A stretch of DNA of 64,000 nt from NCBI RefSeq assembly GCF_002094975.1, contig NZ_CP015284.1, positions 62,001 through 126,000 of the forward strand. The letters are read 5' to 3'. Both the position numbers and the translations under genes were made by a program. Within the stretch, counting starts at the first letter, position 1. Each line of letters begins with the position of its first letter. Shown here one piece after another: positions 4,603-62,385 of this stretch. Below the pieces are notes generated by a model. The model saw only the letters and a list, made by a program, of their open reading frames with translations, was not told where the DNA came from and did no database searches. The DNA comes from Streptococcus salivarius. Its GTDB lineage: Bacteria > Bacillota > Bacilli > Lactobacillales > Streptococcaceae.

Positions 4603-5804
4603 TTATCGATTTTGGGTCAAAGAGTAATCGTAAAGTTTGTTATGCGTAATGAGGTAATACATTGTTCGAATGAGACGATGTATAGAGGCAATCGTATGTG
4701 GCTTAGTTGAAGCTATTGTCGATTGTCTTTTTCGTTTCTCATAGAAATCTGCGATATGGCAGGGATTGGTATGGCTAGCTGAAGCGATATTGTGAATACA
4801 TTTGTACAGAATTTTTTTGCATAAGGATTCCCACGCTTAGTAATATGCTCTTGACCTAGGAAATCTCCCGATTCATAGTGTTTGAGATCAATACCGATAA
4901 AAGCGTTGATTTGATTAGCAGACGTAAAGCGACGAATGTCTCCTAATTCACCAATAACGCTTGTAGCCGTTGTCTCTGCGATGCCAGGAATAGAGAGAAG
5001 AATCTCATATTCAGGTAGAGGTTTAGCTAACTCTATCAACTGTTCTAAAACTTGTTCCCGACGGTTTGTCAACCTTATAAGTTCCTGTGCATTATACTTA
5101 ACCTCTTCTATTATAGGAGAGGTTTTTGAAATGGCAGAATAAGATTGCTTTGCCAGTCCAACTAACTTCTCAGCCAAGTTATCTACTCTGTTCTCTGAAA
5201 TGCGTTTAGAGGTTGACTGGCGAATAGTCTCTTTCAACTCAACTTCCGATAATTCCAGCACCCAATGCTTTGTTGGGAAGATGGACACGAGATTCCAATA
5301 CTGCTCACCTGCAGGAGTAGATAGTAGAATCCCGATTTCTGGGAAGGCGACTTGAAGAACTTTGTGCAGCCTATTCTTCGTCCTTACGATATCCTCTGTC
5401 AGATTTTGGTAGAACCGGCTAAGATCATGCAAGTTTTGATAGACTTTTTCTTGAACATAAGTTGGCTTACGGTTTAAAACGAATTGTGACGAAGCTAGTT
5501 TCTCTGCGTCAATTTTATCGGTTTTCCGGACTCGTAAGCTATCAAGTTGCTTTTTAGCTTCCAAAGGATTAAGACGTGTATAGTCATAGCTGTTTTCTTC
5601 TAGAAAAGCCTGAAGTCGGCGAGAGTAGACACCAGTAGCTTCGGAAATAATTTCGGGGTTACTCACGGTCTTTAGGTCCTTCAGTAGACGAGAAAATCCG
5701 ATAATGTCATTAGACATAGTATAACCGTGAACCCTTTCACCATTCACAAAAATAGCAACTTCTGAGCTTGCTTTACTCACATCAATTCCAAATACTGTCC
5801 GCAT
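4603..5804 (-). pseudogene. IS110-family transposase with C-terminal frameshift
   Basis: The frame from ATG at 5804 begins MRTVFGIDVSKASSEVAIF, the RuvC-like DEDD start of IS110 transposases, and runs with LSIPGIAETTATSVIGELGD and HITKRGNPYAKK near the end, the transposase_20 domain. At a run of seven T (4812-4818; A7 on the coding strand) the frame shifts. The uninterrupted frame ends 363 residues in, while the other frame restores a family-like tail (ILYKCIHNIA, then NPCHIADFYEKRKRQS) to a TAA at 4603. Either the gene is inactivated, or A7 is slippery and both products are made, or the base count is wrong. Confidence 0.8.
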
Positions 5805-25339: not shown

Positions 25340-25415
25340 AATAAACCTCCAGGGCAACATTATATAATTTTTAGAAATATAAATTATCACACTTAATATA
25401 TCAGAAAAATAAATA

Positions 25416-47610: not shown

Positions 47611-49662
47611 TTATTCTTTAGATGGTGCTCCACCTTTTTGTGTCTTAGGATCAATCACCATACCAACTTGTGGTTGGGTATCTCCTAAAATAATTGATGC
47701 TGGACTCAAGAAATCACCATACTGGAAGACTTTCGTTTTCCGACGTTCAAAGTGAATGTGTGGTCCAGTAGCTGCACCTGTTTGTCCAACATATCCGATA
47801 AGTTGGCCTTTTTTGACCTTATCCCCTTTCTTAACAAGAGGAACATCACGCATATGTCCATAATAAATAATAGTGCCATCTGGAAGAGTGTGCATCACGT
47901 GGTTACCGTCGATATTCATCGCCTCTTCATTGACCTCTACTACTTCACCGTCTGTTACGGCATAAATTGGAGAGCCTTCTGGTGCTGCAAGGTCCATTCC
48001 TGTGTGTCCTGAACCCGCATTTGGTCCACCTGCATTAGCTGCTGCACCGAAAAGTTGGGTAATGGTATAAGGAACATCGAGTGGCTGACCAGTATCAGTG
48101 CTGAGATTACTACTATCGCTGTCGCCACACGTATCTGCATCTACTTCCTCCTTGTCATCATCCTTATCCTTCTTGTCTTTCGGACGATAGACATAGACTT
48201 TTCCGTAGTCCATAGTAATACGGTCTCGATATTGGCCATAATTATTCTCAGCAATCCCGTCGGTTGATGGAGAACATTGGATAATATTCTCCTTATCCTC
48301 AACTAGCATGGTCTGTCCTTTATCGCCAGAGCTACTACCTTTCGTACCCCAGATAATGACATCTCCTTTTTCACGGTTTTGAACATCATCTTTAGATGAC
48401 CAGGCACCCTCATACACCAATTCATAACCATTGTCTTTCAACCAGTCGTGTTCTGAATCGGTATCTACTGGAGATCCAGATTCTTTAGCACCACCGTCAA
48501 CAAGGGCATAATAGAGAGCAGATGAATGGTCATAGCTATCTGGCCCAGTACGAGCATCACGAGAATACTTGACCTTCCCTAGCTTATCCTTATACCACTT
48601 GATAGCTTTGTCAGTATCAATAGTCTTTTTATCCTTATCGCTGTCTTTTTTGCTAGCCTTGTTGCTAGAGTCACTTGATGAACTGCTTGAACTGCTATCA
48701 TTATCATCGTCTTCGTTGTCGCTATCTTCTTCATCGTCGTCACCGTCATCATCATCTGAACTTTGACTACTTGACGAGGAGTTATTGGAAGAAGCACCGC
48801 CACCACCAAACGCCTTTTGGAACTTGGCATCATCGTACTTATATTTACTTGCTTCGAAGACTTCCGCAAACTTCCTTGCATCCGCCTTCTTCTGGTCTGG
48901 TTTGACATAAGCCATATTACCTCGTTCGTAGGCATTCCATGACATAGCAGTTTCATCGATATTGGTTTGTTTCGCAAACTCCTGGAATGACCAGTTATGG
49001 CCAGATTCGTCATAAGCTGGGTTCCAGTCACCTTTTGAGATGGCATCGATAACAAAGGCAACCATCTTATCAGCATCTTCCCAATCAGGACTATTAAGAG
49101 GTGCATATTTCGTGTAGGGGTCAAACTGGAAGATTCCACCACCACCAAGTGTGTTAGATGTCCCACCTGTCGTTGGAACAGCTCCCTTAGAAATGGAGTC
49201 ATTGATACCACCACCATAATGCCCTTGGGCACGTCCAATGATGTCATAGCTCCCTTCAGAGTTTGCCCAACCAACAGCACCTGCAGCAGATTCCCCAGAC
49301 AATCCAGCATTCACAAAAGCCATAAAGACTTTGTGGGCATTTTCATAGGCTTTTGTCCCCTTCGTAAAGGGATCAGAGTCGCCAGCAGATGCTGAGTCAG
49401 TTTTAGTAGAAGTCGATTGAGGCTTAGAGCCATCATCGTCTTCTTCATCATCGTCTTCTTCATCGCCATCTTTTTGGTAGGTTACACATTGGGCGTTAGT
49501 CTTGCTACCTTTCCCACCGGAAGTACTAATTGTCCCCATTAAACCAGTGATAATTGCAATTAAGATAACCGCAAAAGTTAAAATAGTTCCTATAATAATG
49601 GTTGTCTTCACTCCAAAAATCGTTAGAAGAACACGAGCAGCCTTATCACCTATTCGTTTCAA
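47611..49662 (-). CDS. Three-domain peptidoglycan hydrolase (VirB1-like) with a dead amidase domain
   Basis: 683 residues (TTG start). A membrane anchor (IIIGTILTFAVILIAIITGL) is followed by a phage-tail-lysozyme-like domain (about 105-270; SGESAAGAVGWANSEGSYDI), an Asp/Ser linker, an NlpC/P60-type Amidase_5 domain (about 355-500), and an M23 endopeptidase (about 535-650) with HTGMDL and GPHIHFE zinc ligands. In the amidase domain the usual SYDCSS nucleophile reads SYDHSS, and the GHTG and IIHC histidines read GQTM and IIQC. That domain is therefore probably inactive and perhaps a wall-binding module. It would open the wall for the secretion channel. Confidence 0.85.
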   Translation of the reverse strand: MKRIGDKAARVLLTIFGVKTTIIIGTILTFAVILIAIITGLMGTISTSGGKGSKTNAQCVTYQKDGDEEDDDEEDDDGSKPQSTSTKTDSASAGDSDPFTKGTKAYENAHKVFMAFVNAGLSGESAAGAVGWANSEGSYDIIGRAQGHYGGGINDSISKGAVPTTGGTSNTLGGGGIFQFDPYTKYAPLNSPDWEDADKMVAFVIDAISKGDWNPAYDESGHNWSFQEFAKQTNIDETAMSWNAYERGNMAYVKPDQKKADARKFAEVFEASKYKYDDAKFQKAFGGGGASSNNSSSSSQSSDDDDGDDDEEDSDNEDDDNDSSSSSSSSDSSNKASKKDSDKDKKTIDTDKAIKWYKDKLGKVKYSRDARTGPDSYDHSSALYYALVDGGAKESGSPVDTDSEHDWLKDNGYELVYEGAWSSKDDVQNREKGDVIIWGTKGSSSGDKGQTMLVEDKENIIQCSPSTDGIAENNYGQYRDRITMDYGKVYVYRPKDKKDKDDDKEEVDADTCGDSDSSNLSTDTGQPLDVPYTITQLFGAAANAGGPNAGSGHTGMDLAAPEGSPIYAVTDGEVVEVNEEAMNIDGNHVMHTLPDGTIIYYGHMRDVPLVKKGDKVKKGQLIGYVGQTGAATGPHIHFERRKTKVFQYGDFLSPASIILGDTQPQVGMVIDPKTQKGGAPSKE

Positions 49663-49679: not shown

Positions 49680-50102
49680 TTAATGAAGTAGTGCGGTTAG
49701 CCAATACCAACCAAATACAAGTAAAAGTCCTAGGGCAAGAAAGATACTTTGTTTAATGAATTTTCGATTTCGTTTTTGTTGTTGCTTTCGCATCCAAAAT
49801 GAATCTTCATCTGAGTAATAGTCTTTGTGACGTTCCACTTGCAAATTATAATAGTCTGTCACATCCTCCTTGACACTGGATAACCTTTCTTTCCCACGCG
49901 CAATGAGACCTTGTTTTTTCTCTTGTTCACGTGCGATACTATCCTCACCAAAACCGTCATAGTAGGTATCGTAAAACGCTGAATAATCTACTTGCTCTTC
50001 GAGGCTTTCCGGATAGACTTGGTCTTGATGCTCATCAAGAGGATCTAGCTCTAGTTCACGCTGAATATACTGACCATCTCGTTTAAAACGATAAGATACC
50101 AT
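49680..50102 (-). CDS. Small C-terminally anchored T4SS cluster protein
   Basis: 140 residues, hydrophilic and acidic, rich in Tyr/Asp (YSAFYDTYYDGFGEDSIARE). A single C-terminal membrane helix (QSIFLALGLLLVFGWYWLTA) ends the protein. It starts 3 bp after the stop of the next-upstream gene, so they are coupled. No family recognised; probably a membrane partner of the channel. Confidence 0.62.
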   Translation of the reverse strand: MVSYRFKRDGQYIQRELELDPLDEHQDQVYPESLEEQVDYSAFYDTYYDGFGEDSIAREQEKKQGLIARGKERLSSVKEDVTDYYNLQVERHKDYYSDEDSFWMRKQQQKRNRKFIKQSIFLALGLLLVFGWYWLTALLH

Positions 50103-50105
50103 ATA

Positions 50106-50804
50106 TTAAAACCTCCTTAAGCCAATAATAGGCATTTTTTGTGGAGCAATATAGAGTTTATCTGTTACTGTTACCTTAGAAAAAGGTACACCTTTGATTT
50201 TGAAAGTACGGTGTAACTCCTTAACAACGAGACCAACTTTATAATCTTTTTCCGTCACTTCTTCCTTAAAGAGTTCTTCATAAGCTGACACCTGAATCAA
50301 GTCTAGGAGACGATAAGCAGATTGATAAGCATAATAGTTACTTCGATTGGCTAATCTCTTTTCAAAAAGAGGTGAATATTCCTTTGAGAAGAATGATACG
50401 ATCTTAACAGCTCGTTTTCTATGGTTATATTCTAGTTTAGCCATAACCCATGCAAGCCCCCAAGTCACTAACGTGATAAAGCCCCAGGTGTTCATCAAAC
50501 AAATAGGAAGAAGACTAAACATAAGGATACGCTTTGCTTTCTTGATACGTTCACGTCTCTTACCAGCAAGTAGCTGATAAAGGGCTACAATCAAGGCACA
50601 AAACACATATGATGTATAGGCAATAGCCATAAAATGAACACCGTAGGCGAATAAAAGTGTCTGATAGAGCATGAGATAGCTATAGAAACCAACCAAACCA
50701 AGAACTAAACTGATAATAAAGGAGACTATCCTAAAAAAACGTAGTGTCTTAATGTCATAAGCAATATTGTTAACCCATAGTGACATTTGCATTAGTGTGG
50801 TCAT
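50106..50804 (-). CDS. Polytopic membrane protein of the T4SS cluster
   Basis: 232 residues with about four helices in two groups (FFRIVSFIISLVLGLVGFYS, then FMAIAYTSYVFCALIVALYQ, and LMNTWGFITLVTWGLAWVMA). A C-terminal cytoplasmic domain follows (EEVTEKDYKVGLVVKELHR). It lies directly between the small genes at 50808 and 49680. Family not recognised. Confidence 0.62.
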   Translation of the reverse strand: MTTLMQMSLWVNNIAYDIKTLRFFRIVSFIISLVLGLVGFYSYLMLYQTLLFAYGVHFMAIAYTSYVFCALIVALYQLLAGKRRERIKKAKRILMFSLLPICLMNTWGFITLVTWGLAWVMAKLEYNHRKRAVKIVSFFSKEYSPLFEKRLANRSNYYAYQSAYRLLDLIQVSAYEELFKEEVTEKDYKVGLVVKELHRTFKIKGVPFSKVTVTDKLYIAPQKMPIIGLRRF

Positions 50805-50807
50805 TAT

Positions 50808-51113
50808 TTAATTTTCCTCCTCTGGTTCTTCTTCTGATTCAAATATTCTCGACTCAAATCGAGCAGGTTCTTGGTAGATAATCATGGCTGAGTACTCATC
50901 CACTTGCTGACTTCCAAATAAGCCACATAAACTACTTAAAAGATGTGTTTTTCGCATCTGATAAGTAATATCAACAACACGACAGGTCTTTTTGTAAGCC
51001 AAGATCTCTAAGTAATCATTTACAATTCTTTCCAAATCATGCGGATTATCCTTTGTCAGAATTTTAGTTTGCAGTTGGAATGCCTCACCAGAATATGGTT
51101 GTTGTAGGTTCAT
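50808..51113 (-). CDS. Small soluble T4SS cluster protein
   Basis: 101 residues from ATG 51113, with AAAGGGGG upstream (an earlier in-frame GTG lacks spacing). It is acidic at the end (FESRIFESEEEPEEEN) and helical in the middle (DLERIVNDYLEILAYKK). It follows the VirB4-like gene by 23 bp. No family recognised. Confidence 0.58.
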   Translation of the reverse strand: MNLQQPYSGEAFQLQTKILTKDNPHDLERIVNDYLEILAYKKTCRVVDITYQMRKTHLLSSLCGLFGSQQVDEYSAMIIYQEPARFESRIFESEEEPEEEN

Positions 51114-51136
51114 TGTATTTCCCCCTTTCACCATTT

Positions 51137-53098
51137 CTAAGGTAAGAATGCATAGCGAACATGTTCATCATACGGATACTTACCATAAGACCTATTATCC
51201 GCTAGTTGATGGTTGAAGACTAAGTTCTTGACAGAAGCAATATTTAGGAAGAAATCACCATCTCTTAAATATTTAAGTGAGGAAAGCTCACTCTCGGTCA
51301 TTTCCCCTTGTAAAGCATCCGCTAGACGAGGGATAGTCAAATCACCTAATTGAGAAAAGACACGATACGTCATCATAGAGAAAATCGCACGTGTCGCTAA
51401 AACGTAGTCCACTGCGTCCGTAGAGTTTGCATTCAAGAGGATGTTATCTAACGAACTCATTTCCATAATAAATGCGGAATAGTTACTACTTACATTCTCA
51501 ATCAAATCCTTTAGAAAGTTAAGAGACTCTGAATAACGATAATTGAAGAGCTTATGTGCTCCGTTAATGGTAATAATGCTATGAGGTCGCTGGCTCTTAT
51601 CTCCCCCGATAATCCCTCTACGGAAATACTCAGATACCCTTCTACCATTTGCTACAGCGTATGATGAAATGATAGATAACACTTGGTAAAGCTGAATATT
51701 AAGAAGTTCAGTATCTTGAATCCCAGAGAGGTCAAAGGTTACAACTTGTTCATTTGAGAAATCTTCAAACTGTGAGGTCGCATTTAAGAAGCGATAATCC
51801 CCCAAGAGACCAGAGAAAGCATTATAGAGACGGTCATAACTTGCAGCATCAATTTCATTCCCCTCTGCGATTTTGTCCTCTTTAAGCTTGTTTAAGCGTT
51901 CTACCCAATGAGATAGAGTCGGATAATCTTCTGGAATAACATTCGTAATCGTTAAGTCTTCTTGGTCCATGACTTCTGCATTACGGTTCCACAGACTACG
52001 GTCTTCATAAAAGTCGTTTAAAGCAGACGACAAATTATTGAGGTCAGAATTCTTTAACCCTGGATCAAGAATTTGAGCCAAAGCACGTAGTTTATTACGG
52101 TGGGCATAGAAAGATTGAACCTGGTCCGTTGTTTCTCCATCTGCAGAGGAAGCCGTCGCAATAATTTGCATGAGGTTAATATGATTTCGATTATTAGTAC
52201 CAGACATCTTAACATATCGACCACCTTGAAGTTCCGTAAGTTCTTTTAAGTTACCAGTAAGGTCAATGTTAAAAATGGTATGGCCTTTAGCAAAATAGGT
52301 ATCAATCAAATTACCTAACAGTTTCATTTTCCCGTTTCCTGCTCCGGCAATCAGCATTGATGGAATTTTACGTTCCCTATCTTCATGCAAAAGGTCAAAG
52401 TTAACCACACCACCAGTACGTGTTTCTCCCAAGTAAACACCATAGGTATCCATTAAGTTCGTATGATTAAAAGGATAGCCAGCACCTAAATCCCAGACGG
52501 ATGCTGCTTGCCCTTTTCGACGTAGTGGGGTGTCTTCCAAACGAGAAGCGGGGATAAAGGCTGTATGATATTCGACATCTTGCATGCCATCTGAAGAAGA
52601 GATAGAATACTGATTCAACTGTTGCTTGAGGTCAGCTTCTCGTTCTACCAGTTGCTCCAATGTGTTTGCAGCTAATAAAAAGCGGGTGTGAATTTTTTTA
52701 GAAGGAACATTATTACCAAGTTTTTCGCGATAGTCTAACAAAGAACTAATACGCATCTTATCATCTGCATCTTGTGCAGCCTTTGTGTTTTGCGTTGCTA
52801 ACATATTAGAGATAGCTTTTGAGGCTAATTCTGACATTTCGCTATTTGAAGCATGTTCTAAAGACATAAAGCTGATAACATTATCAACAAGCATTAAATC
52901 GCTCATCCAGAAGTCAGGTAAACCGTGTTCTGGGTATCGGTCATATGGAACATGAGCAATCTTATAATAACCGTTTGCTTGTCTCCAATATCTATCATCA
53001 TATTTAAAATCTGGAATATCACTTTGAATCCTACTAATAAGATTGAGGTCATAACCCTCTCGAATATATTTCTTGATTTTTCGTGAACTTAAATCCAT
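51137..53098 (-). CDS. VirB4-like protein, C-terminal part, with degenerate ATPase motifs
   Basis: 653 residues. The layout is that of VirB4/TraE motor domains, with a conserved post-Walker strand (IFNIDLTGNLKELTELQGGR, then SGTNNRNHINLMQI) like the DPENE...INP text of active enzymes. However, the Walker A site reads AGAGNGKMKLL (no Gly in the first position and Met for Ser/Thr), and the Walker B acid pair DE is NG in IITINGAHKLF. The later T-Q sensor is also changed (MEMSSLDNILL). ATP hydrolysis is unlikely. It may be a structural remnant of the motor at the channel base. The N-terminal half is a separate gene upstream. Confidence 0.78.
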   Translation of the reverse strand: MDLSSRKIKKYIREGYDLNLISRIQSDIPDFKYDDRYWRQANGYYKIAHVPYDRYPEHGLPDFWMSDLMLVDNVISFMSLEHASNSEMSELASKAISNMLATQNTKAAQDADDKMRISSLLDYREKLGNNVPSKKIHTRFLLAANTLEQLVEREADLKQQLNQYSISSSDGMQDVEYHTAFIPASRLEDTPLRRKGQAASVWDLGAGYPFNHTNLMDTYGVYLGETRTGGVVNFDLLHEDRERKIPSMLIAGAGNGKMKLLGNLIDTYFAKGHTIFNIDLTGNLKELTELQGGRYVKMSGTNNRNHINLMQIIATASSADGETTDQVQSFYAHRNKLRALAQILDPGLKNSDLNNLSSALNDFYEDRSLWNRNAEVMDQEDLTITNVIPEDYPTLSHWVERLNKLKEDKIAEGNEIDAASYDRLYNAFSGLLGDYRFLNATSQFEDFSNEQVVTFDLSGIQDTELLNIQLYQVLSIISSYAVANGRRVSEYFRRGIIGGDKSQRPHSIITINGAHKLFNYRYSESLNFLKDLIENVSSNYSAFIMEMSSLDNILLNANSTDAVDYVLATRAIFSMMTYRVFSQLGDLTIPRLADALQGEMTESELSSLKYLRDGDFFLNIASVKNLVFNHQLADNRSYGKYPYDEHVRYAFLP

Positions 53099-53109
53099 GT
53101 AAACTCCTT

Positions 53110-53946
53110 CTAATACTGGTTAGGCGAAACATTCAGTGAATCATTAAAGTTGTAATATTGAGTCAACAACTCTTCCTTCTTTTCGACAGATACAACTTTA
53201 GGGGCAAATCCGTGGCTCGAAGCAATCGTTAGTGTGGTACGTGTATTGGAATCAATTTCAGCCAAAGTATCTCCAAACACCCAAATAAAGAACTCGATAT
53301 TTTGTTGATTGATTGCAATGACTTGTTGGACGAGATATTTTGTTTTCAAAATATCTTCTCTTTGTCTAAGTTGATAAACAAGTCTCTCTTTACGTGAAAT
53401 GGTATCAATGTCATCACCATCATTGATGATCAATTCTGGAGCGTTCTGTTCTTGTTTGACTTCATCTAGCAGACGTAGCAATTCGTTCGATTGACTTGAG
53501 ACATCTGTTGGCAATTTTGTTGTCTGGATCATCATGTCAAAGGCAGTCCCAGACAGAAAAAGAGTGAATCCTACTTTAATTGCTGCCTGTTCTTCGTTAG
53601 ACATCGCTTGAATATCTTGCCCAAACACCTCAAAAATCTGCACATATCCTGAATAGCCATTAGCTAATCGTATCGGTTGATTAGGATAGCCATATAGGAT
53701 AGACTTCACATCAGTTATCGCAACAGTGTCTAAAAATTCTTTACGTTTCTTCTTATTAAGTGGAACATACACAAATTCCTCTCCGGCACGTTCACCAAGG
53801 TCTATACTTTCATATTGTGTTTGTTTTTCCTTCTTCTTAGCTTGTTTACTTTTACGTGCCTCTTCTTTTTTTTGTTTCTTAAGTTCTTTATTTCGTTTTC
53901 TAAGTTCTTTTTTTGTCAATACTGGTTCTTCAATTAAACCTGGCAT
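53110..53946 (-). CDS. VirB4 N-terminal-like protein (split VirB4)
   Basis: 278 residues from ATG 53946, with GGAGGAA upstream; the 24 earlier in-frame codons precede that site. A Lys-rich charged N-terminus (KKELRKRNKELKKQKKEEAR) is followed by an alpha/beta domain (KSILYGYPNQPIRLANGYSG onward, then QEQNAPELIINDGDDIDTIS) resembling the N-terminal CagE/TrbE-like domain of VirB4. The stop is 11 bp before the ATG of the C-terminal part, so one ancestral gene has been split or two chains form one motor. It is the first gene after a regulon promoter. Confidence 0.6.
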   Translation of the reverse strand: MPGLIEEPVLTKKELRKRNKELKKQKKEEARKSKQAKKKEKQTQYESIDLGERAGEEFVYVPLNKKKRKEFLDTVAITDVKSILYGYPNQPIRLANGYSGYVQIFEVFGQDIQAMSNEEQAAIKVGFTLFLSGTAFDMMIQTTKLPTDVSSQSNELLRLLDEVKQEQNAPELIINDGDDIDTISRKERLVYQLRQREDILKTKYLVQQVIAINQQNIEFFIWVFGDTLAEIDSNTRTTLTIASSHGFAPKVVSVEKKEELLTQYYNFNDSLNVSPNQY

Positions 53947-53977
53947 ATCATTTCCTCCATAAACATTATTCTTCCCT

Positions 53978-54019
53978 ATTCTACAAAACACTATAGGGTG
54001 TTCGTAACCCAGTGACACC
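53978..54019 (-). promoter_or_regulatory. Regulon promoter (site 5)
   Basis: On the - strand GGTGTCACTGGGTTA (54005-54019), 21 bp, TAGAAT (53978-53983), then a normal leader with GGAGG before the ATG at 53946. It starts the transcript for the VirB4-like pair and genes beyond. Confidence 0.8.
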
Positions 54020-54154
54020 TATTAGCTACTCATACTTCTCCATGATTTTGACTATTTACTTCTATTTAGGGCTCTCTGTCCTTGTCTAGCTACTTAAAAA
54101 CTGTTACAATCAAATAAATACAAACGCAATAATCTTTTTTAGGAGGGTTTTAGG

Positions 54155-54517
54155 ATGCTAGACTTTTTACAAGATTTTTATTTTTCACTTTATATAAGCA
54201 CTTGGACCTCGTTTAAATGGTTACTTTTTTCAGTACTGATTGGTATCGCTTGCTTCTTGCTTACGCTTCTTTTTTCTACGATAAGTGAGGCGGCAGAAAC
54301 GATTTGGTTTAAATTTTCTTTGTCTCTAACTGGAATATTTGCTCTGTTTTGTTTATTCATGACACTTCATGGCATCATCCACTCAATAGGAATCCTAGTA
54401 GGTGCTGTTTCTAGTTTCTTTTTCCCAGTATTTGGCTTAATCATTATCTGTGGAATTATCCTATTCATCATCAGTCTTTTTAATCCATTCTTCCTCTTCT
54501 TCTTAGTTAAGAAATAA
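54155..54517 (+). CDS. Small polytopic membrane protein
   Basis: 120 residues, almost all hydrophobic, with four predicted helices (WLLFSVLIGIACFLLTLLFS, FALFCLFMTLHGIIHSIGIL and others). It is the only + strand gene inside the T4SS cluster, with its own promoter (TTGTCT-17-TACAAT ending near 54110) and AGGAGGG before the ATG. Being separately expressed and facing the cluster, it could be an exclusion or immunity-type membrane protein; this is a guess. Family not recognised. Confidence 0.65.
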   Translation: MLDFLQDFYFSLYISTWTSFKWLLFSVLIGIACFLLTLLFSTISEAAETIWFKFSLSLTGIFALFCLFMTLHGIIHSIGILVGAVSSFFFPVFGLIIICGIILFIISLFNPFFLFFLVKK

Positions 54518-54550
54518 AAAACAAGCCTTTAATATGGCTTGTTTTTTTTA
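54518..54550. terminator. Bidirectional terminator
   Basis: AAAACAAGCC-TTTAATAT-GGCTTGTTTT forms a strong hairpin with A- and T-runs, between the convergent genes ending at 54517 and 54559. Confidence 0.9.
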
Positions 54551-54558
54551 GACTATTA

Positions 54559-56790
54559 TCACAACTCTCCGTCTTCTCCAGCATCAAATTTCTGGAATCG
54601 ACTATCACTATCTAAGCTATTTTTCTTTGGTAAGCTTTGAGTCGGAGGAGTAATGTTTGAAGTATCCCCCTTTGGAGTAATTCTTCCTGCTCCACCAGTA
54701 CTATTTAAGATTTTATCTCTAACATTATCTCTAGAGCTTGTGTAGCCTTTTCCGAAACTGCTTGAGAAGTCTTTCTTAACGGATTGACCAGCATTCCTGA
54801 ATTCATTTCCAACAACTTCTTTACCAGATTTAACAGTCTCTTTGAATCTTCTAGACACATTGCGTCCAGTTGCACTCACTGACTGACCAACAATCTCTCT
54901 ATACTTAAGACCATGAGCTCTTCTATCTGCCATTGCATTCCAAGTACCTGCTACAGTACCAGCAGTAGCACCAGCAGCAGTTAAGGCACCTCGTCTGATA
55001 TTGTTTGCAGTTGCTCCTACTGCACCTCCAGCATCCCTAAGACCGTTGATACCACTACCAACGCTATTCTTGAGGTGATTAAAGCCACTTTGATTTCGTC
55101 TGCCAGTAGTTGGATTATACCTACCTACAGCGAAGTTTCTAGCACCACCACCCATTTTTCTAGCAGCCACTGCACCAACAGCCATTGTAGCGACTCCAGC
55201 CTTAGTTCCACTTGAAAGATTAGTATCAATACCTAGCCAGCGTTCCAAAACTTTTGAGCCTTGAGAAACCGCAAGATAAACACCAAGGTAAACCGCAATC
55301 GTCGCAATGGCATGTTGGAATGGATCCAATCCGTCATAGAAACTTCCCCCTAGAGTTTTCTTAGCAGCAGCAGACGCTCCTGAACCTAGATTGAGTTTCA
55401 CTTCGCTATAAGTAATTAAGAACCATTGAGCTACTTTGACGAATAATAGTTGGAACCAGATGGCAGCAATTCCTGTCATAACTTCCTGCCAAACTTCCAA
55501 GATTCTCATACTATTTCCAACTGCTGCATAAGAAACAAGTGGTGAGATAATTACTGTTATAAGCGTTTTGAAAATCACTCGTACAGTAGTCACTAGTAAT
55601 CCAATGAGTAGAAGTAAAATGATGATTTGCTGAGTTATCAGTGCTATCCAGTCAACCTTATAGCGAGCGTAAGTCGGCAAAAAGGCTGTATTATCAAAAC
55701 CAAGGAAATAACCTGATTTTGACGTAGTGACTCGTGCATAAGCTATCTTACCATCTGCATAACGAATGGTGTTGAGCGTAGATCTCATTACATCAGAGAA
55801 TCCATTGTAGGGTGAATTTGCCTGGTCCTCCTTCAAGTCTTTTTCCTCTTTCCAACCAGTAAAGAACAGTTTACTGGTTTGAAGAAGGGCTGTTACTGGG
55901 TTAGACATCGCAACACCATTTTTAACCTGTTGCCCCCAATCAACCGAACCGTCTTCTCGTATTCCTAACATCTTAGGTAGCGACGATACTCGTCCTTCAC
56001 GTCCAGAGTAATACTGCAACATGGCTTTATTGGTTGGGCCATAAGTTTCAGTAAAATTGGTGAACCAAATATTACCATCTGAAATGGTATTCCAGTTTTT
56101 ATCACCCGCTATAAAATGAGTATCTTCATTATAGCCTAACTTATCTGTATCAAAATCCATTGCATACAGCATTTCGAGGTCAACCGTATTGTTCCGAAAT
56201 GGGGTTACAGAAAGCGAAACACTCTGACCACTGCCAGTTATGTCATAATAGGCTAGTCCTACGGTATCCTTCGCTATGGCACTACCAAATTTTGAAGCAA
56301 ACACTGGAAGTGAAGCAACAGAGAAAGTTACCAGAATAATGTGATTGAAGAATTCTCGATACCTGAAAGGTGCTCCTGCAATTGCCATTATAAGTCGAAT
56401 GAGCGTTACCAGAACAAATAATGAAATCCCAACGATTTGAAGCCACTTATAAACTTGACCAACAAAGCTATCGGATTGACTAATATAGTCAAACATCCCG
56501 AATAACTTAAACATGTTGAGGTAGGCTTTCTCAATCGCATAACTAAAACTATAGATACCTTTTGAAAGCATCTCGGGAATAAAGCCAAAAGCTATAAATA
56601 CCCCAGTTGTTGGGTGGAGGTATTGGTCCCACTGTGCATAAAAGGATGCCAATAAGAGCTCTTTATCTTTGTCACCTCCCCAACCTTTAGAACCAACTTC
56701 ATTAGGCCAATCTTTCGATTGAGAGATCATATCTGATAGGGATGGCCAGACCTTCCCTTGTTCAATCTCAATTGTTGCTTCTGCACCCAT
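54559..56790 (-). CDS. VirB6/TrbL-like polytopic channel protein
   Basis: 743 residues, ATG behind GGAGG. After a soluble N-terminus come several helices (GISLFVLVTLIRLIMAIAGA; FFNHIILVTFSVASLPVF). A large extracytoplasmic loop (about 190-360) and a second group of helices follow (IIILLLLIGLLVTTVRVIFK; AIATIAVYLGVYLAVS). The cytoplasmic tail from about 520 is Gly/Arg/Ser-rich with low complexity. This build matches VirB6/TrsL-type inner-membrane proteins of Gram-positive T4SS. Start and stop are 3 bp from neighbours, showing operon coupling. Confidence 0.75.
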   Translation of the reverse strand: MGAEATIEIEQGKVWPSLSDMISQSKDWPNEVGSKGWGGDKDKELLLASFYAQWDQYLHPTTGVFIAFGFIPEMLSKGIYSFSYAIEKAYLNMFKLFGMFDYISQSDSFVGQVYKWLQIVGISLFVLVTLIRLIMAIAGAPFRYREFFNHIILVTFSVASLPVFASKFGSAIAKDTVGLAYYDITGSGQSVSLSVTPFRNNTVDLEMLYAMDFDTDKLGYNEDTHFIAGDKNWNTISDGNIWFTNFTETYGPTNKAMLQYYSGREGRVSSLPKMLGIREDGSVDWGQQVKNGVAMSNPVTALLQTSKLFFTGWKEEKDLKEDQANSPYNGFSDVMRSTLNTIRYADGKIAYARVTTSKSGYFLGFDNTAFLPTYARYKVDWIALITQQIIILLLLIGLLVTTVRVIFKTLITVIISPLVSYAAVGNSMRILEVWQEVMTGIAAIWFQLLFVKVAQWFLITYSEVKLNLGSGASAAAKKTLGGSFYDGLDPFQHAIATIAVYLGVYLAVSQGSKVLERWLGIDTNLSSGTKAGVATMAVGAVAARKMGGGARNFAVGRYNPTTGRRNQSGFNHLKNSVGSGINGLRDAGGAVGATANNIRRGALTAAGATAGTVAGTWNAMADRRAHGLKYREIVGQSVSATGRNVSRRFKETVKSGKEVVGNEFRNAGQSVKKDFSSSFGKGYTSSRDNVRDKILNSTGGAGRITPKGDTSNITPPTQSLPKKNSLDSDSRFQKFDAGEDGEL

Positions 56791-56793
56791 AGG

Positions 56794-58008
56794 TTATCCC
56801 TCCTTGTTTTCAGTTTTTTCAGCTGAAGTTTCAGTAGAAGGAGATGTTGGAGTTGCAAATGCTGTTGTTGTCGGTTCAGATGTAACTACCCAACCTTGAG
56901 TAGCTGATGGTTTTTTCTTAACATTGAAAGTAACACGACGAACTGTCGTTTTTTGAGCCTCATCCGTTGTACCAACAACGTATGTAACCTCATAGGTATC
57001 TTTCTCATTCTTAACGAGTTCAACTTTCTCCAACATTGTGCTAGAAACAGTCGCTACCTCTGGGTTAGTAAATTTAGCGTCGTTATTATCCAAGTAAGCT
57101 TTAAGCTTATCCTTGTCTCCTGAATAATAGTATGACAAGAAATAACGAGCCATGACATCAATCTCATGTTCATGATCTTGTATCATTGTAAGACGCTCAA
57201 CTTTATCTGTTGTGGCCACAAGTTCTTTCTTCACGCGCGTGAAATTACTATTATAGACCATTAGCATCAACAATAAGAACACCGACAAGGTACAAGAGCC
57301 AATAGCCAAAATCAATGGCAACTTACTTGGTGGTCCTACTTCTTCATCTTCATACACTCTGCCTGTCTTCTCCTTCCGTTTCTTGGCTCCAGCAACTGAT
57401 TGTTTATGCTTATCCTTATTCGACATAAGACGATTTGGAAGTTCTCCTTCAATCGTTCCAGGTTTTGGATAAGGTGGCATATCAACAAGAGACAAGCCTA
57501 GACTTTCAGCATAACATGGAAGTAACCCCATAGGCCCACTGAAAAAGTTCGAGATGCCTTCATATGTTGTTTTCTCAAACCGTTTATCACGGTGTGCTTC
57601 TTCGATAAGTGGGGTAACGAGTTCCTTATAATCTTTCGTAATAACAAAAGGGGTAATCTGAGGTTGTCCTTCAATACTAGGGACTCCCGTAGTTGGTCGT
57701 GTCACACGACCATTTTGTTCCATCGGTTGACTAGCAAGAGCAATTCCTTTTAAGGTAAATTCAGAATAACGCTTTTTGATTTCTCGAAAAAGTAATTCTG
57801 CTTGTTTAAAAGTTAGGAATGGTAGACTTTGAGCAATACTTTCCTTTTTATTACTAGGGAAATATTCAGTATCTAAGTCATCAATGATATCTGCTAACTC
57901 TTCATCCTTTTTAGGATTTGCATTTCCTTTCCACTCGATATAAAGAAACAAGGCATCGGGAAACAATACCTTGCGATTCCCCTTTATGGTAAGTAATTCT
58001 TTTTCCAT
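56794..58008 (-). CDS. VirB8-like bitopic protein with extra N-terminal domain
   Basis: 404 residues. Residues 1-200 are a cytoplasmic domain (YFPSNKKESIAQSLPFLTFK; LPCYAESLGLSLVDMPPYPK). One membrane helix (KLPLILAIGSCTLSVFLLLM, about 232-256) is followed by an extracytoplasmic domain of VirB8/NTF2-like size (DVMARYFLSYYYSGDKDKLK onward) and a Thr/Ser tail. VirB8 proteins organise the channel scaffold. The cytoplasmic domain is larger than usual and I do not recognise it. Confidence 0.68.
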   Translation of the reverse strand: MEKELLTIKGNRKVLFPDALFLYIEWKGNANPKKDEELADIIDDLDTEYFPSNKKESIAQSLPFLTFKQAELLFREIKKRYSEFTLKGIALASQPMEQNGRVTRPTTGVPSIEGQPQITPFVITKDYKELVTPLIEEAHRDKRFEKTTYEGISNFFSGPMGLLPCYAESLGLSLVDMPPYPKPGTIEGELPNRLMSNKDKHKQSVAGAKKRKEKTGRVYEDEEVGPPSKLPLILAIGSCTLSVFLLLMLMVYNSNFTRVKKELVATTDKVERLTMIQDHEHEIDVMARYFLSYYYSGDKDKLKAYLDNNDAKFTNPEVATVSSTMLEKVELVKNEKDTYEVTYVVGTTDEAQKTTVRRVTFNVKKKPSATQGWVVTSEPTTTAFATPTSPSTETSAEKTENKEG

Positions 58009-58028
58009 AAAGTAAACCTCTTAACTAC

Positions 58029-58376
58029 TTATTTGGGTTGCCATAGATAAGTGACGATTGTAGTTATCGCTGAACCAACACATAGTGCGATTGCAATCCA
58101 CATTAGCCAATCAAGTGCTACTGTTCGTTTCTTATCTCCCATCATTAACAAAGCTGAAGCAACTAAACCGAATACTACTGCAGCTCCTGGGAATATAATA
58201 CGCAACATACCTGCAACGTCATTAAGCGTATTTGTTGCTTCATTAGCTGGATTAGCAGCATTTCCTCCAGTTTGCTCCGCAAAAGCAAGGGATACAGAGT
58301 TTAACGTCAACAAAGCAGTCATTCCTAGTGTTGATGCCTTTGTCTTCACGTTGTTCAAAAATGTGTTTTCTTTCAA
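58029..58376 (-). CDS. VirB2-like pilin/channel subunit
   Basis: 115 residues from TTG 58376 (AAGGAGG 6 bp upstream). A signal peptide (LGMTALLTLNSVSLAFA) is followed by a short polar stretch and two membrane helices (LRIIFPGAAVVFGLVASALL and LMWIAIALCVGSAITTIVTY) separated by DKKRT. Size and two-helix layout are those of VirB2/TrbC pilins. It is the first gene after regulon promoter site 6 and the next gene follows by 20 bp. Confidence 0.75.
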   Translation of the reverse strand: MKENTFLNNVKTKASTLGMTALLTLNSVSLAFAEQTGGNAANPANEATNTLNDVAGMLRIIFPGAAVVFGLVASALLMMGDKKRTVALDWLMWIAIALCVGSAITTIVTYLWQPK

Positions 58377-58405
58377 AACAGCCTCCTTAAAAATTTAATA
58401 TCTGT

Positions 58406-58447
58406 AGTCTACAATATTCCATCTACGAGTCACAACCTAGTGACACC
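58406..58447 (-). promoter_or_regulatory. Regulon promoter (site 6)
   Basis: On the - strand GGTGTCACTAGGTTG (58433-58447), 21 bp, TAGACT (58406-58411). The element overlaps the last 2 bp before the stop of the upstream AAA+ gene, so the pilin operon has its own promoter inside the cluster. Confidence 0.75.
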
Positions 58448-58449
58448 CC

Positions 58450-60393
58450 TTAAGAAGTAAGCAAATAGTTACCATACTCCTCTGGAGGTATCCGTTTGAC
58501 ACTAATATGCGTCTGACGCCTATCTTGAACTGTCTTTCTACCTGAGTTACCATACGCAAACGTTCCTGGTGCATGTCCAGATAAAGACACATCAACCATA
58601 AAGTAATCTTGTGGCTTTCGCCCAAGGAAATACAATTGCTCAAAGATTTCATCAGTTAACACTTCATCAATAGTTCTCTCTAAAGGCCTTGCTCCATCTT
58701 CTGGACTAACACCGACACTACTAAGATATTCATAGAAGTATTTTTTGCCATCGATAGTTTGGTCACCATCCATAACATCCTCATAATTAATAAGGATATG
58801 ATGCTCTTTAAACCAACTGCTCTCATGTACAGCCATTTTTGAATAGACAATCTTATCAATGGTTTGTTTCGTCAAGATATTAGTCACTTCAATTTTCCAA
58901 CGGTTGATAAATTCAGGACGTTTAAAGATCTTGATTAACTCGTCTCTCATGTCCTTCATGAACTCTTTATAGTCAGTCTTGTTCATTTCTGTAAAGGTCT
59001 GACCAGAGGTGATATATTTATCTTTGATTCGCTTATGCCCCACGTTTGATGTTGCAATGATAAACGTATTCTTAAAATTGATTTTTCGTCCACGTCCGTC
59101 AGTTAAATGCCCGTCATCAAGCATTTGCAAATATAAAGCCCATACATCTGGATGAGCCTTTTCTAACTCGTCCAATAGTACTAACGAGTAGGGATTCTTC
59201 TTAATTTTTTCCGTTAAGTCACCTTTTCGCTCGTCATTTCCTATAAGACGAACAACAGCATTATCAGTCATGTATTCTGACATATCCAGCCGAATCATCG
59301 CTTCTTCACTACCAAACAGTTGTTTTGCTGCTTGTTTCGCCAATTCAGTTTTACCTGTACCTGTTGTTCCAAGTAGAAGAAGAGTTCCTAGAGGTCTTCG
59401 CTTGTTCTGCCCACCCTGGATACCTTTATACATAAGGCGTGCTATAGTTCGAATCACATGGTCTTGCCCCTTAACAACAGCACGCATACCTTCTGCAAAA
59501 TCCACTGGTGTTGAGGACGTGCGTAGAAGACTTTCCATAGGAATACCTTTTTTACGGTGAATGACACTCGCAATATCTTTTAAGGTAATCTCTGATTTCC
59601 CATCGATATTTGCAGTCGCTGAAGCTTCATCAATAATATCAATAGCTTTATCCGGAAGCATTTTATCCGTGACATAACGAATAGATAATTCTACTGCTGC
59701 CTTAATGGCATCAGTAGGAATCTCAATATCAAGTTCTCGTTTATACTTGGGACGACGTTTTTTCAAGACCAAAATAGATGCCTCTTTGTCCAGTTCATCA
59801 ACGTAAACTGGTTGCAGACGTCGTTCCATCGCTGGGTCTCGTTCGATAATCATAAACTCATCAGCTGTAGTGGCTGAAATAAGATAGATTTCCCCACGAG
59901 ATAAGGCTGGTTTCAAGCTATTAGCGACGTCAAGAGCACTTCCCTCAACACCTGTTCCCATAATGGTATGCACTTCATCAATAAAGAGGATAAACTCATC
60001 TTTGTGAGCCATAAACTCTTTAATCAATCCGTCCATTTTGGCAATGATGTTCACCTCTTTACCTGTATGGTCAAATTCTTTCCCTTGGATAGCAGATAAT
60101 TCTAGTTGCTTAACCTGCTTACCTTGGAAACGTGTTGGGACGTGGGCTTTCTTGTTAAGAATATCCGCACAAATTCCTTCTACAATAGCTGTTTTACCTA
60201 CACCAGCTTCACCAATTAGTACAGGAGAGTTTTTTTCTAATCGATTCAGTGAGATAAAGACTTGTCTGATTTCATCTTGTCTACCCCAAGCCACAAAATC
60301 TTGACGCTTGGGTCTGATTTTCTCAGTAAGGTCTGTTGTGTATTTGTCAATATAAGGAGTCTTACTAAGATTATGGTTAGTCCTCTCCTTCAT
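58450..60393 (-). CDS. Clp-type AAA+ ATPase with two ATPase domains, in the T4SS cluster
   Basis: 647 residues. Domain 1 has Walker A GEAGVGKT (61-68) and Walker B ILFIDEVHTIMG. Domain 2 has GTTGTGKTELAKQA (about 340) and LVLLDELEKAHPDVW, with sensor text ATSNVGHKRI. This is the ClpB/ClpC pattern, but the N-terminal substrate domain and the ClpB middle coil are missing and no ClpP-binding loop is obvious. It starts exactly at the stop of the VirB3-like gene and precedes the pilin gene. As the VirB4-like protein here has no usable ATP site, this protein may drive substrate unfolding, pilin handling or transport. Confidence 0.88.
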   Translation of the reverse strand: MKERTNHNLSKTPYIDKYTTDLTEKIRPKRQDFVAWGRQDEIRQVFISLNRLEKNSPVLIGEAGVGKTAIVEGICADILNKKAHVPTRFQGKQVKQLELSAIQGKEFDHTGKEVNIIAKMDGLIKEFMAHKDEFILFIDEVHTIMGTGVEGSALDVANSLKPALSRGEIYLISATTADEFMIIERDPAMERRLQPVYVDELDKEASILVLKKRRPKYKRELDIEIPTDAIKAAVELSIRYVTDKMLPDKAIDIIDEASATANIDGKSEITLKDIASVIHRKKGIPMESLLRTSSTPVDFAEGMRAVVKGQDHVIRTIARLMYKGIQGGQNKRRPLGTLLLLGTTGTGKTELAKQAAKQLFGSEEAMIRLDMSEYMTDNAVVRLIGNDERKGDLTEKIKKNPYSLVLLDELEKAHPDVWALYLQMLDDGHLTDGRGRKINFKNTFIIATSNVGHKRIKDKYITSGQTFTEMNKTDYKEFMKDMRDELIKIFKRPEFINRWKIEVTNILTKQTIDKIVYSKMAVHESSWFKEHHILINYEDVMDGDQTIDGKKYFYEYLSSVGVSPEDGARPLERTIDEVLTDEIFEQLYFLGRKPQDYFMVDVSLSGHAPGTFAYGNSGRKTVQDRRQTHISVKRIPPEEYGNYLLTS

Positions 60394-60795
60394 CTATTTA
60401 TACTTCCTTCCTAAACGTTCTGCAGCCTTATCCATTAAGTAGCGACGGTTTTTCGAGCCATCATCTCTCAACTCTGGGTAACAGTTCTTATCAATTGGAT
60501 AATAACGTTTCTTTGTCCGACGGTGTGCATGAATAAATTCCCAGAACTTATTTCCACCAGACGAAGAAGGGATCATCCAATAAATCGTTAAAGTCATTGT
60601 ACAGAGTAAATTGATTAGGAACTTCAACTCTTGCCCTCTAGGGAAAAATATATCCCTGAATTGTAGTGGAAAAACAAAACTCCCTACTATAATGAAGGCT
60701 TTCATTACCGGAACACCGTAGTACTTTACCTGCGTGTAAAGACCACGAGGCAGTCCCCAGTTCCCCTCTTGTTGTTGATTTTCTTCTTGATTCAT
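60394..60795 (-). CDS. VirB3-like small membrane protein (DUF5592-like)
   Basis: 133 residues from ATG 60795, with AGGAGG 6 bp upstream (eight earlier in-frame codons precede the site). Two close helices (VKYYGVPVMKAFIIVGSFVF and FLINLLCTMTLTIYWMI) lie in the first 80 residues. A basic C-terminal part follows (HAHRRTKKRYYPIDKNCYPE). VirB3/TcpE-type proteins have this form and pair with VirB4. The stop touches the next ATG. Confidence 0.68.
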   Translation of the reverse strand: MNQEENQQQEGNWGLPRGLYTQVKYYGVPVMKAFIIVGSFVFPLQFRDIFFPRGQELKFLINLLCTMTLTIYWMIPSSSGGNKFWEFIHAHRRTKKRYYPIDKNCYPELRDDGSKNRRYLMDKAAERLGRKYK

Positions 60796-60805
60796 CCAGT
60801 ACCTC

Positions 60806-61204
60806 CTAGAAGTCAATATCCATCATTGGTTGAATATTACTTTCAAAATAAAGGAAATAACGGAATTTCTCAGTCAAAAGCTCCACTTGATCCCTCTGAA
60901 TACAAATAGAACCTTTCTCTCCAAAATCAATATCCAAAAGGTCCGTACATTCAATACGGCATTGGTTTAAGTGTGTCTTAACTACCTCAATGGATGTTTC
61001 AGAGTCATGATGTACGTTACTTGAGACAAAACTACGAAAGTTCTTCCAACCAACTTCTTTATCAATGATTTGATGTAGGCGTTCTAAACCGTCTGCCCAT
61101 TTCCCTCTAAAAATTTGAAGGGGTTCATTCATAGCGTTACCTCGCTGATATTTCATCAATAGGCAGTCCTGGTTAAGTAAATAGCGTTGTTCGTCAATTG
61201 TCAT
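60806..61204 (-). CDS. Hypothetical soluble T4SS cluster protein
   Basis: 132 residues, no membrane segment. Aromatic and acidic text near the end (RYFLYFESNIQPMMDIDF) and a helical middle (DSETSIEVVKTHLNQCRIEC) are visible. It lies between the bitopic protein at 61240 and the VirB3-like gene, with short spacings. Family not recognised. Confidence 0.6.
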   Translation of the reverse strand: MTIDEQRYLLNQDCLLMKYQRGNAMNEPLQIFRGKWADGLERLHQIIDKEVGWKNFRSFVSSNVHHDSETSIEVVKTHLNQCRIECTDLLDIDFGEKGSICIQRDQVELLTEKFRYFLYFESNIQPMMDIDF

Positions 61205-61239: not shown

Positions 61240-62337
61240 TTATTCCCCAATATCTTGTTTTACTGAGCGCACTGGTGAATTAAACTTGTAGGTACCATTC
61301 TTAACTGCTTTGATATTCTTTTCAATCTGTTCAATGATTGTCTGAACATAAGCAGCATTTTCACGCGCTTTCGCTCCGTCCTTCTCTTTAGAGTCCATAC
61401 TTTTCTCGATAGCTTCCATATCACTCTGCTTATCGGTTAACTCGTTACCGACCAAGTATTCTGACTCACGCTTCAACTGCTCCAATGTCTTAGTATCTTC
61501 CTTGACACTGTCATCAAGTGTTTTTGCAGAAGCCAAGAGTTCTTTTCGTTGACCTTTTTGATATTTCAACTCCTCTTCAAAAATATTGAGGGCAAACTTC
61601 TCACGAGACAAATTCTTGACATATTTGTTTTTGAGAAGTTCATTTTGAGGAGTTACAAAGAAATCAACGTAGTTCTTATTCCCTTCCTTATCTTTTTGTT
61701 TATTCTGCTTAGAAACTGAAGCGTCATTAGAACTTGATGATAAGTAGTCATTGTATTCTTGAACGTCAATCTTGAGACTGTTTGAGTTCGGTGTCTTATT
61801 TGTCGCACGAATAACCATGAGCGTATAATCTGAAGGCACATTACGCATGACCAGATACACCTTATCTCCGGTTAACGGAATGACTTCTAAGGTCACTGCT
61901 TCAGGATTCTTAACACTACTTGGCAAGAAAACCTGCCAATCAAGATTTTCAGTATTAATCCCTTTTTTAATAGCACTAGTAGCATCTGATGTTGTTAACT
62001 CCATAACGACCAACCCATTTGAAGAAGAGTAAGTCATAGAGGTTGCTGTGATGCTTCCAAGGCCATTACCAAATGATTGTGCTGCCTGCAGTTGTGACTC
62101 TAAGTAAGTAACTCGGGTTGGAGAGAAATAAGCAGTTGTAGCTGTCCAGACCATAGTTCCCAGTAATGCATAGCTAATGATTAACGTTCGTTTTAACCGA
62201 TGTCGCCTCAAGTAAGAAAGAACTCTGTTACTCTCCCAGAAGGACTTGATCCTATTTGCTGCTCTAATCGGAAAATACCGCCAACCTTCCAGCTCTTCGA
62301 GCCCCTGTGTATTTTCATAATCTTTAAATTCTACCAT
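61240..62337 (-). CDS. Bitopic membrane protein, first gene of the T4SS operon
   Basis: 365 residues from ATG 62337; twelve earlier in-frame codons overlap the promoter and are not used. A basic cytoplasmic start is followed by one helix (RTLIISYALLGTMVWTATTA, about 50-72). A beta-rich extracytoplasmic domain runs about 80-200 (SATSAIKKGINTENLDWQVF), then a long coiled coil (KTLEQLKRESEYLVGNELTD). Role unknown; a scaffold of the outer face of the channel is likely. A -10 box ends 6 bp before the ATG, so translation is probably leaderless. Confidence 0.65.
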   Translation of the reverse strand: MVEFKDYENTQGLEELEGWRYFPIRAANRIKSFWESNRVLSYLRRHRLKRTLIISYALLGTMVWTATTAYFSPTRVTYLESQLQAAQSFGNGLGSITATSMTYSSSNGLVVMELTTSDATSAIKKGINTENLDWQVFLPSSVKNPEAVTLEVIPLTGDKVYLVMRNVPSDYTLMVIRATNKTPNSNSLKIDVQEYNDYLSSSSNDASVSKQNKQKDKEGNKNYVDFFVTPQNELLKNKYVKNLSREKFALNIFEEELKYQKGQRKELLASAKTLDDSVKEDTKTLEQLKRESEYLVGNELTDKQSDMEAIEKSMDSKEKDGAKARENAAYVQTIIEQIEKNIKAVKNGTYKFNSPVRSVKQDIGE

Positions 62338-62343
62338 GAAGCC

Positions 62344-62385
62344 ATGATAGGCTATTTTATATAGGTGTCGCAACCTAGTGACATA
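62344..62385 (-). promoter_or_regulatory. Regulon promoter (site 7), apparently leaderless
   Basis: On the - strand ATGTCACTAGGTTG (element 62371-62385), 21 bp, TATCAT (62344-62349), six bases, ATG at 62337. The spacing to the ATG is the same as at site 4. Confidence 0.72.

Follow-up and report, generated by a model that had tools for sequence, protein, structure and literature searches.

The window studied here is a stretch of 64,000 nucleotides from Streptococcus salivarius (C2:62001-126000), taken from a contig of 126,555 bases in a genome of two contigs and 2.33 Mb. Bare coordinates below are window positions, and those marked C2: or C1: are contig positions in the same genome. The window carries a type IV secretion system (T4SS) cluster on the minus strand, running from ~62.4 to 47.6 kb, in which the genes are ordered as a 377-residue protein, a 132-residue protein, a VirB3-like protein, a Clp-type ATPase, VirB2, a VirB8-like protein, a VirB6-like protein, and the N- and C-parts of VirB4 (VirB4N and VirB4C). 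Downstream of VirB4C follow three small proteins and then a VirB1-like wall hydrolase. The VirB4 and Clp-type proteins are 97–99% identical to those of megaplasmids of 138–237 kb, mostly from S. salivarius, and these two proteins are the main subject of our analysis. Throughout the branch to which they belong, VirB4 is ATP-dead and kept under selection, and in both of our genome surveys it is tied without exception to a Clp-derived ATPase that lacks the threading loops.

VirB4 is encoded as two separate chains. VirB4N, 302 residues from a GTG start (53110..54018, minus strand), matched the profile NF045975 (E 1.3e-5, model positions 126–280), which places the VirB4 N-domain on this second chain, and was aligned with the N-parts of 10 relatives; in annotated relatives the start lies further in, at ~53946. 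VirB4C, 653 residues (51137..53098, minus strand), has the C-terminal domain of the VirB4 fold and has lost its ATP site. The Walker A remnant AGAGNGKM (residues 251–258, 52325..52348, minus strand) aligns with GNAGMGKST of intact relatives, and the Walker B remnant INGAHKLF (residues 511–518, 51545..51568, minus strand) aligns with their NIDE. An earlier account made from the letters of the window (the sequence-only reading) had described a divided VirB4 without usable Walker motifs, and this is seen both in the frames and in the alignment to intact relatives. It had also noted no other VirB4, and our search found no canonical, intact VirB4 elsewhere in the genome; the split dead VirB4 is the only one. 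The split itself was considered as a novelty and this was ruled out, as lactobacilli with an intact VirB4 also have it, and it is old and ordinary for the family. The closest known proteins include VirB4 of Thermoanaerobacter (4ag5) and TrwK of R388, and the latter carries the N-domain and the ATP site in a single chain, unlike the split VirB4 here.

We surveyed 284 Streptococcus genomes with VirB4 and Clp-type profiles, and a sample of 395 Lactobacillales genomes with the VirB4 profile. Assignment of the window to Streptococcus agrees with its plasmid matches and with G195 and G612, whose contigs are shared with the S. sanguinis loci L015 and L017. Within the genus, 42 of the 284 genomes matched VirB4, with 46 matches, two of which are motif-less N-terminal fragments (G262 and G278) that were left out of the counts. 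The Walker motifs are degenerate in all 44 motif-covering matches (40 genomes). The plasmid branch keeps the Walker A Lys, followed by M, D, E, G or H, and has a TGA-like Walker B; a second VirB4 group has AGAPKMYQK and NISSAQ in place of the Walker motifs; and the chromosomal branch has GNP.MGQ(R/K/T) with NIS(E/G/D)AQ or TISDAQ. The order sample gave 49 matches in 45 genomes. Outside Streptococcus, 43 matches in 39 genomes comprise 36 intact VirB4s, two with GKT and a changed Walker B, three fragments and two dead VirB4s (G551 and G492:C21), giving 46 dead matches over the two surveys; the fragment rows of G491 (two) and G363 were likewise left out of the counts. The Walker B Asp is kept in 0 of the 46.

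Restored Walker motifs were found in none of the streptococcal relatives (34–97% identity), while the motifs are intact in lactobacilli at 28–30% identity. The loss is thus a derived state of one branch. A VirB4 tree was built without the motif columns after near-identical rows had been removed (83 rows reduced to 58, the P-numbered ones being database proteins without a gene neighbourhood seen), and in it all 31 dead rows fall on one side of a branch with 100/100 support, amounting to one change. At the Walker A Ser/Thr position, 23 thinned intact rows have S/T, at the 3rd percentile of variability, and 13 thinned dead rows have seven residue types (D/E/G/H/K/M/R), at the 93rd percentile. These residues bear on whether the VirB4 chain retains ATP binding or hydrolysis at a modified site. 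The Lys retained in the plasmid branch would allow for this; however, it is replaced by Gln in the chromosomal branch, and with the Walker B Asp lost throughout and the Ser/Thr position so variable in dead rows we consider residual ATP use improbable.

Loss of catalytic residues would also fit a decayed T4SS that no longer works. The frames are open, however, and the dead VirB4 is spread over 40 species-level genomes together with the same partner. The ratio of nonsynonymous to synonymous substitution (dN/dS), a simple counting estimate, is 0.031–0.066 for the window's VirB4C paired with its counterparts in five S. salivarius plasmids, similar to the values of 0.041–0.135 for the Clp-type gene (4 pairs) and 0.028–0.063 for VirB8 (4 pairs). 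The dead VirB4 chain is therefore kept under strong purifying selection, and because of its low dN/dS we rejected decay, which we regard as very improbable. Stop codons within the match occur in 4 of 44 VirB4 matches (G195:C10, G239:C17, G277 and G199), where an open frame still spans nearly the full length.

The Clp-type gene (58450..60393, minus strand) encodes a double AAA+ ATPase of 647 residues. It has no N-terminal substrate domain, the first AAA+ match beginning at residue 37, and, as the sequence-only reading had it, both ATP sites are kept, with all ATP motifs seen. In a tree of 50 rows (59 before removal of near-identical ones), a single clade with 100/100 support unites 30 T4SS-type rows and sets them apart from 20 canonical Clps. 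Members of this clade resemble ClpB, ClpC and ClpE (Hsp100) in having two AAA+ rings, with both Walker A and both Walker B motifs and the arginine-finger positions kept. They differ in forming a separate clade, in length (604–691 residues, with one outlier of 880, against 740–842 in 25 canonical rows), and in lacking the N-domain and the aromatic pore loops. None of the 34 T4SS-type rows (12 of these being database proteins without a gene neighbourhood seen) has the KYRGE-type loop in its first ring or the GYVG loop in its second, while both loops are present in all 25 aligned canonical Clps from the surveyed genomes. Since both aromatic loops are lost, a threading unfoldase is unlikely, and the unfoldase suggested in the sequence-only reading is not supported. 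With pore loops and N-domain missing and the Walker motifs kept, an ATP-driven mechanical or assembly role is suggested instead. Stops within the match occur in 5 of 44 Clp-type copies (G195:C16, G198, G164, G276 and G069), with a near-full open frame in all except G069, which is partial and has two stops. The longest clade member seen is the 880-residue protein P0016, from S. dentiloxodontae.

Among the 284 Streptococcus genomes, the Clp-type gene is present in all 40 that have a motif-covering VirB4 and in none of the 244 others, at a limit of E <= 1e-170 under which copies as divergent as those of G438, G462 and G595 (487–507 bits) would escape. Copy numbers are equal in every genome, 44 to 44; in 34 of the 44 pairs both genes share a contig, at a distance of 4.6–24 kb, and the other 10 pairs are divided between contigs of draft assemblies. 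The gene is thus tied to the T4SS and is not absent from related clusters, absence being what the sequence-only reading had named as telling against it. Both genomes with VirB4 fragments (G262 and G278) are without it. An apparent set of dead VirB4s without a Clp-type gene in the chromosomal branch was an artefact of 10-kb flanks, the gene lying 9–24 kb away or on another contig. Outside Streptococcus, five of the 39 VirB4 genomes have the gene: G492 (two copies), G551, G438, G462 and G595. Over both surveys, all 46 dead VirB4s have it in the same genome.

The gene is also found together with intact VirB4, namely in 4 of 36 order-sample matches (G492:C4, G438, G462 and G595) and in two lactobacillar plasmids, pMP118 and an L. 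argentoratensis plasmid. The other 32 of 36 intact matches are without it at the limit used (1e-90, where 25 of the remaining matches were aligned and all proved canonical), as are the genomes of L021 and L022. These cases do not support a mere exchange of one motor for another. Because the gene occurs beside intact VirB4 in lactobacilli, it was likely gained first, and the VirB4 ATPase lost later.

We then considered the genes for DNA transfer elsewhere on the plasmid. The sequence-only reading had seen no VirD4, and this part of it did not stand: a plasmid-wide search found a VirD4-like protein of 1012 residues outside the window (C2:18749-21787). Its Walker A motif, G[LP]IGxGKS, and the DE pair are kept in 8 of 8 relatives. 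The S. equinus and DTU relatives score above the PF12696 cut-off, and the pIKMIN-B501 copy, a close relative, gave no Pfam match at E 0.1. Near this gene, a 422-residue protein is a candidate relaxase (Replic_Relax, PF13814, 25.6 bits against a cut-off of 25.3), and PcfJ-, SNF2- and LPD1-type proteins are also encoded on the plasmid outside the window. Upstream of the VirD4-like gene lies a 2834-residue protein with a signal-peptide-like start (C2:24210-32714, minus strand). On the chromosome, a 261-residue frame holds a C-terminal piece of a normal VirD4 (C1:2054104-2054460, minus strand; PF12696, 128 bits), which is probably the remnant of an integrated element.

A normal VirD4 is found in the five chromosomal-branch members aligned. 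The elements of G017 and G122 both encode a MobL relaxase (PF18555, 2/2) and a DDE transposase (PF06782, 2/2), with a coupling protein of 1048 residues in G017 (PF02534, 1.1e-42) and 1042 residues in G122. By eye, the G017 element (contig C1; L148/L079/L080) sits between pyrD-like and pyrF-like genes. These genes bear on the suggestion, made in the sequence-only reading, that the machine transports proteins rather than DNA, with the Clp-type ATPase feeding unfolded proteins to the channel. On the window plasmid the VirD4 gene is not within the cluster, and MOB-suite labels such plasmids non-mobilizable, as a secretion machine would have it. Set against this are the VirD4-like ATPase and relaxase candidate of the same plasmid, the MobL and normal VirD4 of the chromosomal branch, the loss of the pore loops, and a report that the megaplasmids of S. 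salivarius K12 and M18, which need not carry this cluster, can pass from strain to strain in vitro (PMC3681767). We see only a slim chance for protein secretion. Given the VirD4-like ATPase and the marginal relaxase candidate, DNA transfer is likelier, and conjugation is the likely use of this T4SS as judged from its gene content.

VirD4 is also central to a further explanation, in which VirB4 is an ATP-free scaffold, VirD4 the sole motor of the channel, and the Clp-derived ATPase an accessory acting, for example, on the relaxosome, pilin or topoisomerase. The VirD4 Walker motifs are kept, and VirD4 is given as the main translocase in PMC12624023. A type IA topoisomerase is encoded in the window (38971..41367, minus strand; PF01131, 3.3e-69), and in lactobacilli and the chromosomal branch its kin adjoin the Clp-type gene or lie within one to two genes of it. 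However, no dead VirB4 occurs without the Clp-type gene in the two surveys (46/46), and intact VirB4 is mostly without it (32/36). We judge an accessory role unlikely, though a serious contender.

A further ATPase deserves mention. Outside both the window and the T4SS cluster, the plasmid encodes a GspE/ComGA-family ring ATPase of 260 residues (C2:44030-44812, plus strand; PF00437, 3.1e-35), with the Walker A motif GPVGVGKTT kept. It is related to VirB11 and might supply the missing energy, and kin at 73–90% identity occur in 6 of 8 plasmid records with the window T4SS at >= 97% identity. pIKMIN-B501, p1_CNU_G6 and the DTU plasmid, read whole and carrying both the dead VirB4 and the Clp-type gene, gave no match at E < 0.02, however, and pSsal-YU10 gave none in the search. 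One record names the protein ComGA, and it may belong to DNA uptake. Since three relatives with the same cluster are without it, this ATPase is not the general substitute motor of the branch; it could contribute to the T4SS on this plasmid, and as the source of the missing energy it has little probability.

The remaining genes of the cluster are as follows. The VirB3-like protein (60394..60816, minus strand), kin of DUF5592, is encoded directly upstream of the Clp-type gene; it has no Pfam match of its own and matched by BLAST (2.4e-9 to 2e-11) the gene preceding VirB4N in three chromosomal-branch elements. Further upstream lie the 132-residue protein (60806..61204, minus strand) and, at the head of the cluster, the 377-residue protein (61240..62373, minus strand), conserved in part of the plasmid branch (BLAST 4e-76 in L075, 7e-75 in L077). 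Downstream of the Clp-type gene are a VirB2-like pilin (58029..58376, minus strand; PF18895, 4e-8, above cut-off), a VirB8/TcpC-like protein conserved in relatives (56794..58008, minus strand; PF21497, 5.7e-4, below cut-off) and a VirB6-like protein near the pLS20_p028 family (54559..56790, minus strand; NF045890, 147.1 bits against a cut-off of 150). Between VirB6 and VirB4N, an open reading frame on the opposite strand (54155..54517, plus strand) encodes a small, likely membrane protein; opposite-strand frames lie at about the same place in loci L002, L003, L075 and L076, and it could have a role in entry exclusion or in regulation. After VirB4C come a small protein annotated in S. salivarius plasmids (50808..51134, minus strand) and two conserved, likely membrane proteins of the plasmid branch, at 50106..50804 (minus strand; BLAST 4e-27 to 1e-46) and 49680..50102 (minus strand; 1e-7 to 1e-17), both matched in L002, L075, L076 and L077. 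The VirB1-like wall hydrolase (47611..49662, minus strand) combines Amidase_5, M23 and phage tail lysozyme matches.

Elsewhere in the window, three LPXTG-type surface proteins are encoded near transfer genes (24005-25390, 29021-31765 and 34234-36774, minus strand), the first below the Pfam cut-off and one of the three an antigen I/II-type adhesin; in the chromosomal branch, the T4SS cluster itself encodes large proteins that look secreted. The window also holds an MmeI-type single-chain restriction-modification protein (43006-45786, plus strand) and transposase genes of the IS110, ISL3 and rve types (4713-5804, 21147-22403 and 589-1533).

We compared the system to known conjugative elements. 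The window plasmid VirB4 lies in one clade with chromosomal-branch VirB4 (100/100) and is accompanied by the same Clp-type gene, and the chromosomal branch fits the ConjTnGBS1 superfamily in its DDE transposase and ~1045-residue coupling protein, its kinship to TnGBS1 itself being by features. In its description of the superfamily, PMC4701971 gives a coupling protein, CP-IIb, of ~1045 residues with PF02534 and PF12696, a DDE transposase, a Rel-III relaxase with no identified domain that is assigned to MOBP by CONJscan, and a VirB4 bearing an AAA_10 catalytic domain, the superfamily there being matched to no mating-pair formation class. It also mentions transconjugants with TnGBS1, with reference to Guerillot 2013. 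The word Clp appears nowhere in its main text. The plasmid branch differs in having another, divergent VirD4-like protein away from the cluster, which does not fit CP-IIb, and MobL was not among the 23 frames scanned outside the window, no plasmid-wide search for the family having been made. The pMP118-type T4SS of Ligilactobacillus salivarius shares the split VirB4, the Clp-type ATPase without pore loops, a pLS20_p028-family VirB6 and a VirB1-like hydrolase. Its VirB4, however, keeps GNAGMGKST and NIDE, and its CD1115-family VirD4 is within the cluster.

On this basis we tentatively propose that the ATP-dead, two-chain VirB4 serves as a scaffold and that the Clp-derived double AAA+ ATPase powers the assembly and operation of the channel. 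Since the ATP site of VirB4 is lost, VirB4 is likely only a scaffold, with the Clp-derived ATPase as the energy source. What stood of the sequence-only reading is thus the split dead VirB4 and its Clp-type partner, and what found no support is the unfoldase, the secretion of proteins and the simple exchange of motors.

Several points weigh against our proposal. Contact between the Clp-type protein and the T4SS is a prediction, and this motor could act in some other step; all the energy might come from VirD4 alone; the GspE/ComGA-family ATPase could serve the T4SS on this plasmid; and co-occurrence in a linked cluster is equally expected of an accessory gene. As the Clp-type ATPase also accompanies intact VirB4, it is not a pure replacement. 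Two VirB4s from outside Streptococcus (L104 in G392 and L180 in G596) keep GKT and have MAEA at Walker B, the dead VirB4s of G199 and G492:C21, outside the thinned set, keep the Walker A Thr but have Gln in place of Lys, and the placing of intact lactobacillar VirB4 as sister to the dead clade has weak support (88/67). On the side of DNA transfer, the VirD4-like protein has diverged (16.4 bits to PF12696, short of the cut-off), its profile comparison with the VirD4 of relatives is weak (probability 10), and its structure model is too poor for use, with a mean predicted local distance difference test (pLDDT) score of 52.9. The relaxase candidate comes from a single marginal match, and no other relaxase came up when 23 of the 48 frames listed outside the window were scanned against Pfam. 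A comparison of A8 with PDB sequences gave a single match (KLLA0C15939p, E 0.065) and led nowhere.

If the Clp-derived ATPase is the energy source, the dead VirB4 would still form a membrane platform, on which the Clp-type hexamer would dock from the cytoplasm, as the adjacent VirB3-like gene hints. The ring would then act by ATP-driven rearrangement, in much the manner of VirB11 and VirB4 in Gram-negative bacteria, and not by threading of polypeptides, while the VirD4-like ATPase, which retains its Walker motifs, would pump DNA prepared by a relaxase. The Clp-type ATPase likely entered a system whose VirB4 still worked, as in lactobacilli, and in the streptococcal branch rendered the ATPase activity of VirB4 dispensable. 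The likeness to VirB11 is one of proposed role, that of a cytoplasmic ring ATPase that cooperates with VirB4 (PMC12624023); the 25 listed of the 45 Pfam matches to the Clp-type protein include no T2SSE/VirB11 family. A T2SSE-family member is encoded elsewhere on this plasmid, but is not present in all relatives. In a table of PMC12624023, the VirB11 entry is blank for the two Gram-positive reference systems, and a Clp-derived ring on a VirB4 platform would fill that place in a Gram-positive system. It is possible, and we suggest it guardedly, that these elements form a T4SS class without a VirB4 ATPase, with the pore-loop-less Clp-derived ring as assembly motor and Gram-positive counterpart of VirB11.

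VirB4 is described as the conserved ATPase that energises T4SSs, and it serves as a marker for conjugative elements (PMC7563491). The branch described here, found in 40 of the 284 Streptococcus genomes, has a VirB4 that is barred from the usual use of ATP yet under strong selection, and it allows a direct test of what the VirB4 ATPase is for, and of whether another ring ATPase can replace it. The branch also makes the Clp-type gene a candidate for a core component of the machinery by which streptococcal bacteriocin megaplasmids and TnGBS1-like elements are transferred.

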